DNA of 64,000 bases from Chthoniobacterales bacterium (GCA_035274845.1 DATENU010000010.1:186001-250000); one strand, 5' to 3'; positions 21,760 through 31,210 are shown, counted from the first letter of the stretch. Program-made: numbers and translations. Notes: generated from the letters alone by a model not told the origin.

Positions 21760-24213
21760 ATGCAAACTCTCTTTTCCGACATCCGCTACGCGTTTCGCAT
21801 GATCGCGAAATCACCCGGGTTCGCCGGGCTCGCCGTGCTCGCGTTCGCCCTCGGCATTGGCGCCAACACCGCTATCTTCAGCGTGGTCAACGCCGTCCTG
21901 CTTCGGCCGCTGCCTTATCCGCATTCGGAGCGCTTGATCAACATCCGGGAGAAAACTCCGACCTTCCCGGGGGGTTCAGTGAGTTACCCGAACTTCCTCG
22001 ACTGGCGCGCCGCGCAGCACAGCTTCACCGACCTGACCCTTTTCCGCCGCGAATCCTATAACCTTTCCAGCGTCAAAGGAGGCACGGCGCCAGAACGCAT
22101 TGGCGGAGCGCGCGTGACGGCGAATTTCCTGACCGTTCTCGAGGTGGCTCCGCAGCTGGGCCGCGATTTTACGGAGGCGGATGACGTGCCTCATGGCCCG
22201 AAAGTGGCGCTCATTACCGAGAAGATGTGGAAGAAACGCTTCGGCGGATCGCGCGACGTTCTTGGCCAGCACATTTTGGTCGACGGCATTTCCTACGAAA
22301 TCATCGGCGTGTTGCCAGCGACTGTCCGCATGCCGCGGCTGGCGGAGATTTACGTCCCCCTGGGTGACGTTCGAACCGAACAGGGTGTCCTCTTGCGTGA
22401 TAATCATCCCGGCTTCGGCGCTCTCGGCCGCTTGAAAGAAGGGACGACCCTGGAACAAGCCCGCGCCGATCTGGACACGATCGCGGTCGCCTTGGAAAAG
22501 AAATATCCGGACTCGAATACTGGGCGGCGGATCACCACCCAGTTGCTCTTGGAATCATCCGTCGGCGAGTACCGGCAAAGCCTTTATCTTCTGCTTGGCG
22601 CGGTCGCCTGTGTTTTGCTGATCGCCTGCGCGAACGTCGCGAACCTGCAGCTTGCCCGTATGCTGGCCCGGGGCAAGGAACTGGCCGTGCGGAGCGCGCT
22701 CGGCGCAAGCGGCTGGCGTCTCACTCGGCAAGTGCTGACCGAAAGCGCGGTCCTCGCGTTGCTGGGCGCGCTCGCTGGAGTCCTGCTCGCCATCTGGAGC
22801 CTCGACGCCATTCTGGCGCTGAGTCCGGCGCGCGTCCCGCGTTTCCACGAAACCCGGATCGACTTGTTCGCGCTCGGGTTCACCGTCGCCGTGGCGATCC
22901 TTTCCGGCGTCCTGGTTGGAATTTGGCCGGCCTGGCGAATCTCAAAAAGCAGCTCCCTCGCCCTGGCTTTGCATGAAAGCGCTCGCGGCAGCAGCGACGG
23001 AGTGAATAAGCAGCGCGCCCGCTCAGGCCTCGTCATCACCCAGGTGGCGCTGGCGGTGGTTCTCCTCGCGGCGGGCGGTTTGATGCTGAAGAGCTTCTGG
23101 CGCGCGCAACAGGCGCCGCTTGGTTTTGATCCGCACAATATCCTCACGCTGACTGTCGCCTTGCCGAGTGCGCGCTACGACAAGGAAGAAAAAATCAACG
23201 TTTTCTACGACAAGCTCCTCGCCAAAGTCTCCGCGCTCCCTTCTGTCACCGCCGCCGCGATCGGGGTGAATGTGCCGTTCGACGACAACGAATGGGACAG
23301 CTCTTTTCATCTCACCGGCACCCCGCCGCACGAGCATGGCAAGGAACCTTCCGCCGAAATTAATTTCGTCTCGCCCGATTACTTCAAAGTCCTCGGCATG
23401 CCGGTCGCGCGCGGCCGCGCTTTTGGACGCGAGGAAACGCCAGGTAAACAAACCGCCGTCATGATCGATGAAAGCCTGGCCAAGAAGTTTTTCCCGGGGC
23501 AGGATCCGGTCGGCAAGCAGCTCGACAACAACCAGACGCTGAAGGAGAACCCTCCGCCGCTGACGATTGTCGGCATCGTGCCGCGAACGCGAAACGAGGC
23601 GCCGGGCGAAAAGAACGTCGAGAGCCTGAATTTCCCGCAGCTTTATTTGCCGTTCACCCAGTTCCCGAATGAAAACGTGACTTTGCTGGTGCGCGTCGCC
23701 GCTGGCGATCCACTCGCGCTTGCCCCGGCGGTCAAACGCGAGATCGAATCGATCGACCCCGACCAGCCGGTCGCTCAGATTTCGACGATGGAAAACAATA
23801 TCGGCGCGAGCCTGGCTGCGCGCCGCCTGACCATGATGCTCCTCGGCGCTTTCGCCGGGCTTGCGCTCGTCCTGGCCAGTGTCGGCATTTACGGCGTGAT
23901 GGCGTTGAGCACCACCCAACGCACCCGGGAAATGGGAATCCGTTTCGCGCTGGGCGCCAGCCGCGCCGATGTGTTGCGCCTCGTTCTCGGCAAAGGCATT
24001 TCGCTCATCGGCGTCGGATTGCTGGCCGGGCTTATCGGCGCGTTCCTCGCGAGCCAGGCCTTAAGCAGTTTGCTTTACAACGTCGGTTCTCTCGACGCCG
24101 TCGCGCTCATCGGCGCCGTCGTTACCCTGGCCGCCGTTGCCTTCCTCGCCTGCTATCTTCCCGCCCGCCGCGCCAGCCAGGTCAATCCGATCGAAGCTTT
24201 GCGCATGGAATAA
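21760..24213 (+). CDS. ADOP-family permease (10 of 10 in array)
   Basis: 817 residues starting [21 protein letters not shown], with an N-terminus slightly longer than in the other members. The central half reads [22 protein letters not shown] and the C-terminal half [22 protein letters not shown]; the tail is [15 protein letters not shown]. Its C-terminal stretch ([27 protein letters not shown]) is closely matched by a truncated copy at 28023-28190 beyond the LRR-Roc-COR-TIR gene. The spacer before it holds the composite palindromic element instead of a simple leader array. It is the last intact permease of the array. Confidence 0.9.
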
Positions 24214-24275: not shown

Positions 24276-27200
24276 TTACTCTTTGTTCGTGGCACCCGAC
24301 AGCAAGAAATCTGACCACAGAGTCTTGCCGAGGTTTGTGAGCGTCCCTGCGATGTTCCCGCTGAAGTCCTTCACAAAACTCGACGCCTCCAGCAAGCCCT
24401 CGGCAGAAACCTCATACCACTTCCGGTTTGGCTTGGCGCTTGTTGCTTGTTTAACGAGCATTTCCAAATTCTCTGCTACTTGGGGGGCATCCTCCTGCTT
24501 CTCCGCGGGCAGCGCCTTGAGAAGTTGCTCCACCTGCATCGCCAGTTCCGCCAGCAAGTCTTTCCGTTCTCCGGGTGCCTGTTGCTGGATGATGTTGGTG
24601 CAATTTGTCAACGTTTGGCCGATTTGACTATTGGTGACGTCGCCGCCGATATGAACACTTTGGTCGTGGGTCATAGGTTTATCTCCTTTGATATAATCCC
24701 CTTGAACGATGATGGTGATACCCTCCTCCACTTGCTCCCTCGTCGCAGGCTGCTTGAACGCAGGGTCGCCACGGTTCTGCTCTTTCTTTTCCGCCTGCCG
24801 TTTCAGCAGCAGTTTTTCCAATTCTTTCTGTGCAACATTGAATCCCTCTTTCCGGCTCGAATGCTGGCTGACGGCCTTTCCGCCCGGTTTCATGATTTGA
24901 TACTCCGCCAAATCCAATCCTTCCAAGCTAATGTCATCCACGAGAATCAGCACAAACAGAAAATCCCTCCCCTTGTAGCGCAGTCTCTCACGGGCTGCCT
25001 TGATCTCTACAGTTCCGATGAAATCGGACGCGAGGAATGCTGTCGTCAGCAGCCCCACGAAGACGTCCATGTTCTCCAGATTCTCCTCAATCTCCTGTCG
25101 CCACCGCATTCCGGGTTCGATGAGCCCATCGTGCCACGGTGTGATGAATTTCTTCTTCGTCATGACGGTCAGGTTTTGCTGAAAAATTCCCTTCGCTTTT
25201 TTATCCTCGTGGGAATAGCTCAGGAAGGCATTTAGAGGTATCCGGCCTTCGCCACGGGCTTCCGGCTCGGACGCTTGATTTAGTTGGGGAGTCGGCTCGA
25301 CCAATGCATCTCCCTGCGGTGTTTTTACTGCGACCTGCTGTTTGCCTAATTCGGCAGCCTCCAAATCGGCCACTGGGCGAAAGATTCCAGGCAACCCGGC
25401 CAGTTCTACCTCCGCAACCGGTTTCGGCTCGGGCAGGTCGGAGTGGATACGCTCCAGATTTCCCTGGATTATTTCCAGCAGCCGCAAGCGATCTGTATTG
25501 GGGCCGAATGCCGTCACCTCGACTTGATTGCGTTTCTCACCGCGGCGGACCAGCGCGGCGGCTTGGCCGTCTTGCAGCACTACGCCGTTGCGCCAGCGCG
25601 GCATACCGTCGCTCAGGGAATGCGTCAATACGATGAAACGCGGCAGCACTCCTTCGGGTAGCGGATCATAGATGTAGCGCAGCCGGACACTGCCCGGCTT
25701 CTGCCAGTCTGTTGTCACGCCTTCGGGTTGAAATTCTCCCAACGCCCCTGGTATAAGCCAGGTGTTGGGCACAGTTCCGTGTTCCTCGTCTAGAGGAAAA
25801 CACATTTCAAAACGCTCCATCAATCGCAATAGGAATCGCACGGTCTCCTCCGTTTCGCCGGGCAGCGCTTCCTGCGCCTCCCCTAGTGTGAGTGTGCCAT
25901 CGCTGTGAGGATGGTCTTTGAAGCGTAACAGGCGATAGACGCCATCAGTTACCCAGTGCGGATTGAGTACCGCAGTATCTCGTAGCCGCGGTTCATCTAC
26001 GAAATGCAAAATCGCCCCTAGCTTATGTAATAACCGCGCCAGCGACTCTTGCTTTGCGGGATCCTCTTCACCGCGTTTGGCGCAAATAGCACGAAACTGG
26101 TCGAAAGTAATGTGCTGTCGACCCGTGCTCCTATATGTCGTATGGCCTGCCAGCCCAAGCCAGCGCTTTAGCTGGTAGCCTGTAGATTGACTCTCTGACG
26201 TCGCTTCTGGCCTGCAATCTTCCATTACTTTCAACCAAGTTTCTGGTACCAATAACTTCGGTGGTTCAGTATCCCTGAGCGACTCAATGGCGTTGCAGAG
26301 TTTCTCCCGAAGCGTCTCGCAGCCCTCTCGTTTTTCGCAGTTCGTCGGGGTAAAGCTCTGCACAAACGGAAAGCGCTCCTGCAACGCTCGCCGGTCCACG
26401 TCATATCCGCCCTGTCGCGCATCCTGCCGGTTGAGCGCCACCAGGACTGGCGCGGCACCCGCATACCGCTTAAGGAGTCCGAGCCAATATTCTGCATCCT
26501 GCATCTCAGTATTCGATCGCGGATCAAGAACCAACACATAGACGCAGCCCTCCGTGAGGAAAAACTGATGCAGCGCGTGCGTAATCTCCTGCCCTGCGAA
26601 ATCCCAAAGCCTCACCGTCATTTCGCTCGCCGGGCAGAATAGTCGAAAGCTTTCCAATGCAATGCCTGGCGTCTCTGGCTCCGCCTTATCATGAGGTTGA
26701 TCCATAAAGAACCGCCGCAAACTCGTTTTTCCCGCACCGCCGCGGCCCACGAGCATTACCTTGATCTCGTTTATCGCGCATAGCGTCCCCGTTGCCTCCC
26801 CTTGGCGCTGGGCGAAGTAAAAGTTTAGAATGTCTTCCGGACGCGCAGCCGATTTCTTGTCGGGACCCTCAACTTCTGGGCGTGTTGGTCCCAGGATGGA
26901 GTCGGGAATGGCCAACGGTTTGTTGTCCTGAAGAAAAAGCCGCATGAGATTCGGGAGTTTCCCGATCTCGTAAGGCAGGGTGCGCAGTTGGTTGTGATCG
27001 AGAGAAAGCGTCCTCAGATTGGTGAGCTGGCCGATTTCAGGCGGCACGGTGGTCAGCTGGTTGTTGCTGAGGTTAAGTGTCGGCAGATTGGTGAGCTGGC
27101 CGATTTCGGGCGGCACGGTACTCAGTTGGTTGCTGCTGAGATTAAGCGTCGTCAGATTGGTGAGCTGGCCGATTTCAGGCGGCAGTGTGCCCAGTCGGTT

Positions 27201-27395
27201 GTTGCTGAGATAAAGCTCTCTCAGCTCGGTAAGCTTAGCGATTTCAGGCGGCAGTGTAGATAGCTGATTGTTGGCGAGATGAAGGTCTCTCAACTGGTTA
27301 AGCTGAGTGATTTCATTCGGGAAGGTCGTCAGCTGGTTAGAGTCGAGGTAAAGGGCCGTGAGGTTGGCGCTGAGCCGTGCAATCTCCGAGGGCAA
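24276..27395 (-). CDS. LRR-Roc-COR-TIR protein, main part (downstream of a frameshift)
   Basis: This frame gives 1039 residues and should be read as the continuation of the LRR frame at 27337-27999; one extra G within 27446-27448 separates them. Repaired, the product would be about 1240 residues. Domains in this part: leucine-rich repeats of about 23 residues (1-165, LPPEIGQLTNL type); a Roc GTPase with P-loop GRGGAGKTS (218-226), switch LWDFAGQE (263-270) and LNRQD (321-325); a COR-like region (about 380-660); a TIR domain (about 720-865) beginning NAFLSYSHEDKK, with Glu797 in GTVEIKAARE at the usual position of the NADase glutamate. The tail has a polar segment (QSVHIGGDVTNSQIG) and a helical end. 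Roc-COR proteins are dimeric GTPase switches and TIR domains often degrade NAD+ in immune proteins; an anti-phage role is inference. Its base composition looks less GC-rich than its neighbours. Confidence 0.85.
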   Translation of the reverse strand: MPSEIARLSANLTALYLDSNQLTTFPNEITQLNQLRDLHLANNQLSTLPPEIAKLTELRELYLSNNRLGTLPPEIGQLTNLTTLNLSSNQLSTVPPEIGQLTNLPTLNLSNNQLTTVPPEIGQLTNLRTLSLDHNQLRTLPYEIGKLPNLMRLFLQDNKPLAIPDSILGPTRPEVEGPDKKSAARPEDILNFYFAQRQGEATGTLCAINEIKVMLVGRGGAGKTSLRRFFMDQPHDKAEPETPGIALESFRLFCPASEMTVRLWDFAGQEITHALHQFFLTEGCVYVLVLDPRSNTEMQDAEYWLGLLKRYAGAAPVLVALNRQDARQGGYDVDRRALQERFPFVQSFTPTNCEKREGCETLREKLCNAIESLRDTEPPKLLVPETWLKVMEDCRPEATSESQSTGYQLKRWLGLAGHTTYRSTGRQHITFDQFRAICAKRGEEDPAKQESLARLLHKLGAILHFVDEPRLRDTAVLNPHWVTDGVYRLLRFKDHPHSDGTLTLGEAQEALPGETEETVRFLLRLMERFEMCFPLDEEHGTVPNTWLIPGALGEFQPEGVTTDWQKPGSVRLRYIYDPLPEGVLPRFIVLTHSLSDGMPRWRNGVVLQDGQAAALVRRGEKRNQVEVTAFGPNTDRLRLLEIIQGNLERIHSDLPEPKPVAEVELAGLPGIFRPVADLEAAELGKQQVAVKTPQGDALVEPTPQLNQASEPEARGEGRIPLNAFLSYSHEDKKAKGIFQQNLTVMTKKKFITPWHDGLIEPGMRWRQEIEENLENMDVFVGLLTTAFLASDFIGTVEIKAARERLRYKGRDFLFVLILVDDISLEGLDLAEYQIMKPGGKAVSQHSSRKEGFNVAQKELEKLLLKRQAEKKEQNRGDPAFKQPATREQVEEGITIIVQGDYIKGDKPMTHDQSVHIGGDVTNSQIGQTLTNCTNIIQQQAPGERKDLLAELAMQVEQLLKALPAEKQEDAPQVAENLEMLVKQATSAKPNRKWYEVSAEGLLEASSFVKDFSGNIAGTLTNLGKTLWSDFLLSGATNKE

Positions 27396-27999
27396 AGTAC
27401 TCAGTTGGTTGTTGCTGAGATAAAGCGTGGCCAGCTTGGTGAGCTGGGCCGATTTCAGGCGGCAGAGTGCTTAGTTTGTTGTTGCCAAGGAAGAGAATCT
27501 CTAGCTGGGCGAGCTGGCCAATCTCTGCGGCTAGCGTGCTCAATTGGCTATTGGCAAAAAAGAAGTTTTCCAAGTTGGCGAGCTGGCCAATCTCTGCGGG
27601 GAAGACGCTGAACTGATTGCTCATCAGAGAAAGGCTGGTCAGTTTTGCAAGCTGGCCGATTTCAGGCCGCAAGGCGCTCAGTGGATTGCTGTCGAGGGAT
27701 AGGATTGCCAGGTTGGCGAGTTGGCCGATTTCAGGTGGCAGAGAGCTCAATTGGTTGCCGTCGATGGAAAGGCTCGTTAGATTGGCGAGTTGACCGATTT
27801 CAGGTGGCAGAGAGCTCAATTGGTTGTGGTTGAGATTAAGGCTCGTCAGATTGGTGAGCTGGCCAATTTCAGGCGGCAAGCGCGTCAGGCTGAGGCCGCT
27901 GAAACTGAGTTCCGTGTCTCCCGCGCGGTAGACGGCGTCGATTCTCTCTAAGGCCTCATTATAGGCTTTTTGCTCGGCTGTTACCGGGTTGCGAGGCAT
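27337..27999 (-). CDS. LRR-Roc-COR-TIR protein, N-terminal LRR part (frameshifted)
   Basis: The frame starts at the ATG giving MPRNPVTAEQKAYNEALERI; an in-frame ATG at 28035 would add 12 unrelated residues. After a short helical cap come about eight 23-residue LRR units of the form LPPEIGQLTNLTSLNLNHN. In the ninth unit the text STLPPEIG is followed by PAHQAGHALSQQQ, whereas the other frame supplies the expected QLTKLATLYLSNNQLSTLP. The cause is an extra G: other units read GAGCTGGCCG on the + strand and this one reads GAGCTGGGCCG at 27443-27450. The reading frames overlap at 27337-27395. Either the gene is freshly inactivated or the base is a sequencing or assembly error. Confidence 0.8.
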   Translation of the reverse strand: MPRNPVTAEQKAYNEALERIDAVYRAGDTELSFSGLSLTRLPPEIGQLTNLTSLNLNHNQLSSLPPEIGQLANLTSLSIDGNQLSSLPPEIGQLANLAILSLDSNPLSALRPEIGQLAKLTSLSLMSNQFSVFPAEIGQLANLENFFFANSQLSTLAAEIGQLAQLEILFLGNNKLSTLPPEIGPAHQAGHALSQQQPTEYFALGDCTAQRQPHGPLPRL

Positions 28000-28022: not shown

Positions 28023-28190
28023 GTGGGATTTGCAAGCGTGCACAGCAACAAGGTCGGCGTCGGGCTTTTGGATGCGGTGGCGTTGATTGGCGCGATCGTG
28101 ACGCTCGCCGCCGTTGGCTTCATTGCCTGCTATCTTGCCGCCCGCCGTGCCAGGATGGTCAATCCTGTCGGAGCGTTGCGCACGGAATAG
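28023..28190 (+). pseudogene. Remnant of an ADOP permease C-terminus
   Basis: The frame ending at the TAG at 28188 reads [20 protein letters not shown] then YLAARRARMVNPVGALRTE. This closely matches the end of the permease at 21760-24213 ([39 protein letters not shown]). Everything upstream of this last membrane helix is missing, and the homology stops about 25 bp from the start of the LRR protein gene. It is therefore a truncated eleventh permease, cut off by whatever event placed the LRR-Roc-COR-TIR gene here. Confidence 0.85.
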
Positions 28191-28196
28191 CGAAGC

Positions 28197-28295
28197 GGCC
28201 TCTTCTGTAGCCGCCGCCCTGTGGGCGGCGCAACGCTGCAGGAATAGCAGGTTACCCCGGCGCTTCGCATAGCGAAGCGGCTACAGTTGGCGGCC
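28197..28295. repeat. REP-like palindromes in a 137-bp spacer
   Basis: CTGTAGCCGCC near 28207 is complementary to GCGGCTACAG near 28278. Internal hairpins are GCCGCCC-TGT-GGGCGGC and CGCTTCGC-ATA-GCGAAGCG. There is no coding capacity. The element separates the permease remnant from the oxidoreductase gene. Confidence 0.6.
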
Positions 28296-28327: not shown

Positions 28328-31210
28328 ATGACTTCCGCTCAACGTTCCACGCTCGAGAAGGCCGATTGCGAAATTGCTTTCGACGACCTGACGCGCCAGC
28401 TCTATGCGACCGACGCGTCGCTCTATCAACTCGAGCCGGCGGCCGTCGCTTTTCCCCGGAATGCGCAGCAGGCCAGCGCGGTCATCGTGGCGGCCGCCGA
28501 TGCCGGTATCCCCATCACTCCGCGTGGAGCCGGAACCGGACTATCTGGCGGCGCGATCGGTGACGGATTGATCGTCGAATTCTCGCGGTATAACCGGCAA
28601 ATCACCGACCTCAATCTCGAGGCGCGCACGGTCCGAGCCGGCGCAGGAGTTATCCTCGATCAGCTCAACGCCTTTCTTCAACCGCACGGACTTTGTTTCG
28701 GACCGGACGTGGCCACCAGCTCCCGCGCCACCATCGGCGGCATGATCGCCAACGATTCCTCCGGCGCGCACGTCCCGGTTTACGGCACCACCGCCGACCA
28801 TGTCGTCTCGCAGGAGCTGGTCCTGGCCGACGGGAACATCCAGCAAATCGGTCCCGCTCGTGACACGCTGAACGCGCAGCGGGATCTGATCGCCCGGCTG
28901 GTGTCCGAACATGCGAACGAAATCGAGGCCTGGATGCCGCCGGGATTGCAGAAGCGCTGGTCCGGTTACGCGCTCGCGCGCTGGCTGCGCGACCCGGGCA
29001 ATCTCAATAACATGCTGTGCGGGAGCGAAGGCACCCTCGCCGCGATCTTCTCCGCGGAACTCCGGGTCGTTCCTCTTCCCCGGGAGAAAGGTCTGGGCCT
29101 GGTTTTTTTCGCGTCGGTCGCGGAAGCGATGGAAGCCACGGTCGAGTTACTCGATCTCAAACCCTCAGCCATTGAGCACATCGACCGGCCACTCTTCGAT
29201 CAAACGAAAGGCCAGCTGAATTTCGAAGCCGCGCGGCAACTGCTCGAACTCGATACCAAACCGTGCGAGGCGATTCTGATCGTCGAATTCTTTGACGATG
29301 TGGCGGAACGCCTCTCGCTCCTTTCGGCCAAACGTCTGGGGCTGCGGACAACAATCTGCACTCAAGCGGCGGAGATGAATCTCGTTTGGTCCCTTCGCAA
29401 AGCGGGTCTATCGCTGCTCACCGGGCGCAAAGGCGCGGCCAAACCGGTTGCGTTCATCGAAGACGCGGCGGTTCGTCCCGCTCAGTTACCCGCCTACGTC
29501 GCGGGACTTCACTCGATCATGGAACCGCTCGGCCTGGAGGTTTGTTATTACGGCCACGCCGCGACCGGGCTCCTCCATGTCCGGCCGGTCCTCGATTTGC
29601 ACACCGCGGACGGCCTCCGGAAATACCGCGTCGTCGCCGATGAGGTCGCGGCGCTCGTCAGGCAATTCAAGGGATCGCTCGCCGCGGAACACGGCGTCGG
29701 CATGGCGCGCACGGAATACATGGCGGCCCAGGTGGGCGATGAGTTGCTCGGCGTAATGCGCCAGATCAAAGCGGCCTTCGATCCAAAAGGAATTTTTAAC
29801 CCGGGCAAGATTTTCAGCGACGGCCGGTTCAAAATCGACAACCACCTGCGGGTCGAGTCGGAGGAGCGATTGCGGCTTCCGTTCGAGCCGGTGCTCGCCT
29901 TTGCTTTCAAGGACGAATCGTTCGTCGGCAACCTCGAGCAATGCAACGGCTGCGGCGGTTGCCGGAAAGACGCGCCGACGATGTGCCCGACATTCCTGGC
30001 GACCGGCGAGGAATACATGTCGACGCGCGGCCGGGCCAATGCGATCCGGGCGGCGCTGGAATTGCGCTTTCACGACGATCCGCTGCGAAGCGAAGAGCTC
30101 GACGCCGCGCTGAGCAATTGCCTCTCATGCAAAGCCTGTACGGTCGAATGCCCATCGAACGTCAACCTGGCGCTGCTCAAGGCCGAGCTAACGCATGCGC
30201 GGCATCGGCGCGATGGTTTGCCGTTGCGGGAACGAATCCTAAGCAACGTCGATTTGTTAGGCCGGCTCGGATGCATGATGCCGGGAATCGCAAACGCGAG
30301 CCTCGATTCGCCTCTGATTCGGCGCCTCATGCGAACGGTCCTTGGGCTAACTGACAAGCGCCCGTTGCCGCATTACACCAGACAACGGTTCGATCATTGG
30401 TTTCGGAAACATGTAGCGGCGGTCTCGGACCGTCGAAATGAGGAAGCAATGGTCGGCGCCGATTCGACGGTCAGAGACCGCCGCTACAGGCAGCCACGCG
30501 GCGACGTCATCCTTTGGGACGACACCTTCGTCCGCTACCACGAGCCGCACATTGGCAGGGCCGCTGTGAAGGTGCTCGAAGCGCTTGGCTTCGACGTCTC
30601 GTTGGTCAAGGGCCGCAAATGCTGCGGCCGTCCCGCCTTCAGTCAGGGAAACCTCGATGCCGCGCGCGAAATGGGCCGGCGCAACCTGGAGCTGATCCGG
30701 GCCGCCCATTGCGATGCCCCAATCCTGTTTCTGGAACCCTCCTGCTACTCGATGTTCGTCGAAGATTATCGCGAACTGAAGTTGAGGGGAACGGAACCAA
30801 TCGCGAAACGCAGTCACCTCTTCGATCAATTTGTCGAGGAGCTGCTGGAGCGCGAACCGGGCGCTCTTCGGTTCAACGGCAAATCGGGGCACGTTGCCAT
30901 TCACGCGCATTGCCACGCGAAATCACTCGTGAAGACCGGGTTCATGGCGCGTCTCGCCGCGCGTTTGCCGGGACGAACGGCGGCTCTGCTCGACACCGGC
31001 TGCTGCGGAATGGCCGGCGCCTTCGGTGCACTCGAAGAGAAGTACGATTTGTCGCTCAAGGTGGCCGCGCCATTGGTGCAGCAGGTGAACGCGCAACCGC
31101 CAAATACGGTCGTCGTCGCGTCGGGCACAAGTTGTCGCCACCAACTGGAACATCTGACAACCGTGCGTCCCAAGCACATGGCGGAGCTGCTCGCCGACGC
31201 AATCGCTTAG
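28328..31210 (+). CDS. FAD-binding and Fe-S D-2-hydroxyacid dehydrogenase (GlcD/GlpC fusion, YdiJ-like)
   Basis: 960 residues. The N-terminal half is a PCMH-type FAD-binding domain (GAGTGLSGGAIGDG at about 76) followed by the FAD-oxidase C-terminal domain (EHGVGMARTEY near 455). Then come two 4Fe-4S clusters (CNGCGGCRKDAPTMCP at about 539 and CLSCKACTVECP at about 598) and two CCG domains (KCCGRPAF at about 765; HCHAKS and TGCCGMAGAFG at about 891). This order matches one-polypeptide versions of glycolate or lactate dehydrogenase such as YdiJ, which oxidise a D-2-hydroxyacid and pass electrons to a membrane acceptor; the substrate here is not determinable. A 78-bp palindromic element adds about 26 residues in frame between the Fe-S and CCG parts. 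It ends 4 bp into the convergent gene. Confidence 0.88.
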   Translation: MTSAQRSTLEKADCEIAFDDLTRQLYATDASLYQLEPAAVAFPRNAQQASAVIVAAADAGIPITPRGAGTGLSGGAIGDGLIVEFSRYNRQITDLNLEARTVRAGAGVILDQLNAFLQPHGLCFGPDVATSSRATIGGMIANDSSGAHVPVYGTTADHVVSQELVLADGNIQQIGPARDTLNAQRDLIARLVSEHANEIEAWMPPGLQKRWSGYALARWLRDPGNLNNMLCGSEGTLAAIFSAELRVVPLPREKGLGLVFFASVAEAMEATVELLDLKPSAIEHIDRPLFDQTKGQLNFEAARQLLELDTKPCEAILIVEFFDDVAERLSLLSAKRLGLRTTICTQAAEMNLVWSLRKAGLSLLTGRKGAAKPVAFIEDAAVRPAQLPAYVAGLHSIMEPLGLEVCYYGHAATGLLHVRPVLDLHTADGLRKYRVVADEVAALVRQFKGSLAAEHGVGMARTEYMAAQVGDELLGVMRQIKAAFDPKGIFNPGKIFSDGRFKIDNHLRVESEERLRLPFEPVLAFAFKDESFVGNLEQCNGCGGCRKDAPTMCPTFLATGEEYMSTRGRANAIRAALELRFHDDPLRSEELDAALSNCLSCKACTVECPSNVNLALLKAELTHARHRRDGLPLRERILSNVDLLGRLGCMMPGIANASLDSPLIRRLMRTVLGLTDKRPLPHYTRQRFDHWFRKHVAAVSDRRNEEAMVGADSTVRDRRYRQPRGDVILWDDTFVRYHEPHIGRAAVKVLEALGFDVSLVKGRKCCGRPAFSQGNLDAAREMGRRNLELIRAAHCDAPILFLEPSCYSMFVEDYRELKLRGTEPIAKRSHLFDQFVEELLEREPGALRFNGKSGHVAIHAHCHAKSLVKTGFMARLAARLPGRTAALLDTGCCGMAGAFGALEEKYDLSLKVAAPLVQQVNAQPPNTVVVASGTSCRHQLEHLTTVRPKHMAELLADAIA
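30412..30489. repeat. REP-like hairpin inserted in frame in the oxidoreductase gene
   Basis: Arms of 26 bp (30412-30437 and 30463-30488) are complementary with one mismatch. The arm begins TGTAGCGGCGGTCTC and continues with GACCGTCG, the same motif found between genes at 49791, 56787 and 57376. It is read in a frame that avoids its internal TAG, giving residues VAAVSDRRNEEAMVGADSTV and so on. Confidence 0.85.

Follow-up and report, generated by a model that had tools for sequence, protein, structure and literature searches.

Organization of the locus

We analysed a 64,000 nucleotide stretch of DNA from a Chthoniobacterales bacterium, called the window throughout. Between positions 24276 and 27999 its minus strand encodes, in this order, LRRs, a Roc GTPase, COR-A and COR-B, and a TIR domain followed by a tail at the C-terminus (Table 1). 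The gene is distributed over two ORFs: ORF1 contains LRRs only and overlaps in another frame with the 1039 aa ORF2. The initial annotation had postulated a single polypeptide split by one frameshift, which is confirmed by these two overlapping ORFs. The break was placed near 27,448 within the LRR array, where the last good repeat of ORF1 ends with ...STLPPEIG and ORF2 picks up at QLTKLATLYLSNNQL. It is a shift of the single-nucleotide type, either a real mutation or an assembly error.

Table 1. Features of the Roco locus and its flanks. Columns: position in the window; strand; remarks (pLDDT: AlphaFold confidence value).
Feature	Position	Strand	Remarks
MacB/FtsX-type permease, left flank	21760..24213	+	intact, last of a tandem series
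ORF2	24276-27395	-	1039 aa, LRR half and effector half
Conserved tail module	24279..24659	-	SVHIGGDVTNSQIGQTLTNCTN segment and five-helix domain (residues 920-1026)
Linker from TIR to tail	24660..24767	-	pLDDT <50 at residues 876-921; probably disordered
TIR domain with long C-terminal helix	24768..25238	-	Pfam, models, TIR profile
Putative catalytic Glu797	25005-25007	-	TIR alignment/profile
COR-A and COR-B	25296..26162	-	Roco dimerisation module; best PDB match C. tepidum Roco 6hlu
Roc GTPase	26280..26783	-	P-loop GRGGAGKTS; switch II WDFAGQE; NRQD at the G4 position
Remaining ~8 LRR units	26892..27443	-	in frame with the effector half; solenoid, pLDDT mostly >85
ORF1	27337..27999	-	ATG at 27999; N-terminal helix and first ~7 LRR units; noise past the frame break
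Frame break in the LRR array	27444..27453	-	ORF1 and ORF2 carry on one LRR in different frames
3′-end remnant of a second permease, right flank	28058..28190	+	shares 78% identity with the end of the intact permease
FAD-linked oxidase/Fe-S type gene, right flank	28328..31210	+	directly after the permease in congeners

In two congeneric genomes (G005 and G006) the FAD-linked oxidase gene directly follows the orthologue of the left permease, with no Roco gene between them. At this place the window has the Roco gene and the 133 bp remnant of the second permease end. Since the flanking genes are the same in both congeners and the site between them is empty, the insertion is lineage-specific and was probably acquired horizontally. 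The GC content of the gene is 54.9%, compared to 61.3% and 59.9% in the flanks; together with the empty sites this agrees with the lone insertion of different composition described earlier. We noticed neither an integrase nor a transposase at the insert edges, and scans for promoters and terminators were not informative. The two permease ends were considered as a direct duplication, but they are only 78% identical and do not represent the target-site duplication of a recent event. The upstream part of the window (4198-24213, plus strand) contains about eight tandem MacB/FtsX-type permease-sized genes of ~800-820 aa, and similar arrays are found in congeners. Just past the permease remnant lies a REP-like palindromic stretch (~28207-28286), which is present at the same place in G006; its core 26-mer occurs once in the window.

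Relatives, probable horizontal transfer and the frame break

Three relatives span the Roc-COR-TIR-tail part: L039 from an uncultured Verrucomicrobia MAG (74% identity), L038 from a Rhodoferax MAG (77%; this assignment relies on the MAG's own binning) and L040 from a Gemmataceae MAG (60%). Close homologues (60-77% identical) thus stem from Verrucomicrobiota, Planctomycetota and the one Rhodoferax MAG. In a maximum-likelihood tree of the Roc-COR core, the window protein and the Verrucomicrobiota, Pseudomonadota and Planctomycetota copies form one clade with 100/100 support; the TIR-Rocos that two congeners carry (41 and 35% identity) fall outside of it. A cross-phylum clade that excludes the proteins of congeners indicates horizontal transfer. 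Within the phylum COR-A is uncommon, occurring in 6 of 289 genomes. The Roc-to-tail part had no phage match, and plasmid matches cover Roc-COR only. When plasmids were searched with the tail, the single match was weak and came from Nitrosomonas. An origin as phage or plasmid cargo is therefore not supported.

The L039 homologue is intact (1080 aa), and its Roc-COR core is 83% identical to that of the window protein, while the number of LRRs differs. Comparison of the two gave pN values of 0.10-0.19 and pS values of 0.57-0.67 in Roc, COR, TIR and tail, and each of these parts is therefore under purifying selection.

Because the gene is frame-broken in the assembly, its activity in the source strain is uncertain, and the window copy may be inactive or yield an LRR-short protein. 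A real LRR frameshift that uncouples the sensor from the half with switch and effector would make it a pseudogene within a decaying insertion. This explanation draws on the break itself, on the neighbouring permease ORFs, which are intact so that the assembly is not generally error-ridden, on the permease remnant at the right edge, and on L038, which is broken between the N-terminal helix and the LRRs (L038:7600-7960) with the remainder intact. However, there is a single break in a 3.7 kb gene, the 1039 aa half is fully open, and pN is low relative to pS. Moreover, Tandem Repeats Finder reports a 69 bp period with 13.1 copies for the LRR array; repeat arrays of this kind are a classic site of assembly errors, and the LRR array of another homologue, G260, includes unknown bases. 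The breaks in or just before the LRR arrays of the window gene and L038 reflect either assembly trouble in the 69 bp repeats or true LRR instability. Altogether we consider a pseudogene rather unlikely, and this explanation would be compatible with an NADase function at the level of the family.

Domains of the LRR-Roc-COR core and the TIR domain

Pfam searches with both ORFs identified LRR_8 (2.7e-23), Roc (6.1e-22), COR-A (6e-29), COR-B (3e-16) and TIR_2 (1.2e-8). The LRR array contains 6 + 8 strict units and one divergent first unit, which matches the about 15 units counted previously. An AlphaFold model built from a 12-sequence alignment (mean pLDDT 78.8) shows a discrete LRR solenoid, Roc (residues 205-372), COR (about 425-700), TIR (721-876) and a helical tail domain (920-1026). 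With this whole model, Foldseek found LRR-Roc-COR of Chlorobium tepidum as the top PDB fold (E 1.4e-34). The Roc GTPase and the COR-like region recognised in the initial annotation are supported by the Pfam matches, the model and the PDB comparison alike; the P-loop is intact, and its G and K residues do not vary among 12 homologues.

As in other Roco proteins, Roc is directly followed by COR with both subdomains, and the LRRs are N-terminal as in prokaryotic members. The LRR-Roc-COR core is shared with the Chlorobium tepidum Roco (PDB 6hlu, 8r4b), whereas the construct solved there has neither a TIR domain nor a tail module. To our knowledge no defence role has been assigned to the Chlorobium protein. 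The proposed NLR/ROCO-like order of recognition, switch and effector holds for the domain order and for Roco membership, but not for the switch itself: in contrast to NLRs and STAND NTPases, which use a STAND ATPase (NB-ARC, NACHT), the window protein has a Roc of the Ras superfamily. It may work like an NLR, yet it is not an NLR.

The TIR domain with a putative NADase glutamate could likewise be substantiated. In a profile of eight TIRs the position of Glu797, one of 11 invariant columns, aligns with the glutamate of Cat1 and of plant TIR NADases; the residue sits on the helix after an SDF-type motif, as it does in TIR NADases. A model of TIR and tail was compared with known structures using VIA-align, which gave Z 12.6 for the SPARTA TIR (rmsd 2.7, 128 residues), 11.6 for the NAD-bound RUN1 TIR and 10.4 for AbTir. 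Nucleoside hydrolases of related fold also reach Z about 10, and thus the fold alone is no proof of NADase activity. At the sequence level the TIR domain resembles solved TIRs only weakly, the best PDB profile match having an E of 1.3e-4.

Both the TIR fold and the glutamate position are shared with SPARTA TIR-APAZ, AbTir, Cat1 and the TIRs of plant TIR-NLRs. These proteins are gated by Argonaute and nucleic acid, by a CARF ligand or by a STAND ATPase, not by Roc-COR. The TIR region also matches the PADLOC profile of Thoeris ThsB (1.6e-14); however, ThsB has neither Roc-COR nor LRRs, and the scanned neighbours gave no profile match for its partner ThsA.

A conserved module at the C-terminus

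The "unusual polar tail" reported initially is not a low-complexity end. It opens a conserved module of ~125 residues, part disordered and part helical, that shares 59-76% identity with its counterparts in five homologues. It matches no Pfam or NCBIfam family, and PADLOC run on the whole protein gave matches in the TIR region only. The Foldseek matches of the whole model were dominated by LRR-Roc-COR, with none informative on the tail, and the fold search with the TIR and tail model returned TIR-like folds and no known fold for the tail. No match to the tail was found in viral contigs or phages; matches to PHROG families were judged to be due to chance (best E 0.016). The tail profile matches small DUF4404 (PF14357) proteins at E about 1e-7, which suggests that the helical half may be a remote relative of this family; the tail of the window protein, however, matches nothing in Pfam.

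The tail follows the TIR domain in the window protein, L038 and L039. In seven homologues (G075, G053, G050, G160, G260, G272 and G507) it comes straight after COR and a TIR domain is missing, and in the congeners G006 and G007 a TIR domain is present and the tail absent. Since each occurs with or without the other, TIR and tail behave as independent cassettes behind the same switch. In the Gemmataceae relative L040 the tail is a separate ORF, the ATG of which overlaps the stop codon of the LRR-Roc-COR-TIR gene as ATGA; alternatively, a frameshift may join the two ORFs. The same genome encodes another stand-alone tail ORF of 181 aa (L092). Weak tail matches were obtained on an AAA-type ATPase (L095, profile E 3.3e-4; AAA_14 1.2e-6) and on a plasmid protein (L060, E 1e-4) whose N-terminus has no assigned identity. 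In a Pseudomonadota sequence (L097:1477-3266, minus strand) two adjacent ORFs share an AQ(A/V)MAVG-type segment, and the shorter of them weakly matches the tail profile and DUF5955.

We could not find a description of the tail module or its apparent in-trans form in the literature searched, nor in Pfam, NCBIfam or PADLOC. Our tentative proposal, for which we would not claim even odds, is that bacterial immune-like switches have an adaptor domain not described so far, represented by the tail. According to this proposal the TIR cassette was inserted or lost between Roc-COR and the tail, related modules reside on other NTPases, and the overlapping Gemmataceae gene would provide the module in trans; the domain would nucleate or recruit a signalling complex.

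Genomic context

We surveyed the neighbourhoods of the window gene and ten homologues (57 proteins) for defence islands. One homologue, G272, adjoins a KAP NTPase, to which the clear defence-type matches, including PifA/QatA-like profile matches, were assigned; the others have no clear defence-type neighbour. The homologues do not lie in defence islands. Among the 15 neighbours scanned around the window gene no clear defence gene was found, and profile matches of the mads, GlgB and transporter type were judged to be generic. The neighbours differ at each locus and are mostly metabolic-looking, indicating that the gene travels alone. A solitary gene neither proves nor refutes a role in defence.

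The solitary position among metabolic-looking genes would also fit a TIR domain that is a scaffold only, with Roc-COR gating TIR-TIR contacts for the cell's own physiology (development or stress) and not for NAD+ killing or defence. That many TIRs serve as scaffolds is stated in PMC8494770. However, the putative catalytic glutamate is invariant, and the patchy presence in the phylum together with the cross-phylum transfer is unlike a housekeeping signalling gene; we therefore regard a pure scaffold as improbable. Least probable by far is a role as an effector that is delivered into a eukaryotic neighbour or acts on one: LRR and TIR modules also occur in secreted bacterial effectors, but the NCBIfam matches to Xop/SspH-type LRR effectors were all rejected as far below the curated cut-offs and are explained by generic LRRs, the Roc-COR core belongs to the intracellular type of Roco, and we noticed no genes for secretion at the locus.

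Elsewhere in the window genome (G000), contig C11 encodes a TIR-NACHT-like protein and, at a distance of about 5 kb, a second LRR-Roc-COR protein whose C-terminus has no assigned identity (L046:1522-4071 and L046:8942-12154, both plus strand). Contigs C17 (L047:7500-10985, plus strand) and C12 (L048:7001-10432, minus strand) encode paralogous proteins of ~1150 aa with an N-terminal TIR, a WD40 propeller and a Roc/Ras GTPase; the C17 copy has a C-terminal DUF4365 (Pfam). This pair gives the genome a second switch-type architecture, distinct from that of the window protein.

Discussion

Kaur et al. (2021, eLife; PMC8195603) describe prokaryotic LRR-AP-GTPase-COR proteins with at least 24 alternative C-terminal domains, TIR among them, and predict a counter-invader (conflict system) function for the class. 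The window protein shares with them the LRRs, the AP-GTPase (Roc), COR and a TIR effector. Further class traits given there are found here as well: several paralogues with different C-termini per genome, a fast-diverging LRR array, as seen in the different LRR numbers of the window protein and L039, and a TIR domain that is present or absent among homologues. In contrast, the passages of the main text consulted do not mention a conserved tail after the TIR domain. A review from 2019 (PMC6337361) placed all prokaryotic Rocos identified at that time in the group with LRR-RocCOR only. Judged by its sequence, the architecture is thus not new; the window protein is a member of a predicted class, and reading it as sensor, switch and effector agrees with the published prediction. 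An experimental test of a bacterial Roc-COR-TIR protein, be it for NADase activity or against phages, was not found in the literature searched.

The defence or signalling switch suggested in the initial annotation is supported by the domains, the P-loop, the TIR fold, the putative glutamate and the class prediction, but not by defence islands. We favour a GTP-gated NADase acting in abortive infection, with a portable assembly module, as the function of the family (probability about 0.6). As a member of the prokaryotic Roco (AP-GTPase) class, the protein would act as a single-component, NLR-like alarm inside the cell, gained horizontally in this lineage between the permease and FAD-oxidase genes. 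Its LRR array would bind a trigger, probably an invader-derived or damage-related protein, and binding would alter the state of the Roc-COR switch, either in its nucleotide or in its dimerisation. Such a change of state is established for the Chlorobium Roco. By analogy to AbTir, SPARTA and Cat1, it would bring TIR domains together and switch on Glu797-dependent cleavage of NAD+, and NAD+ depletion may then result in growth arrest or aborted infection. As its distribution suggests, the tail module on its flexible linker most likely has a role in assembly or in the recruitment of partners, in the manner of an effector-associated adaptor domain.

Interest in Roco proteins stems chiefly from human LRRK2. 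Here an LRRK2-type switch is joined to a TIR domain with a putative catalytic residue, which would make the question of what Roc-COR gates testable by an NAD+ readout. The tail module, being conserved, may in turn be a new assembly domain, which can be tested as well.
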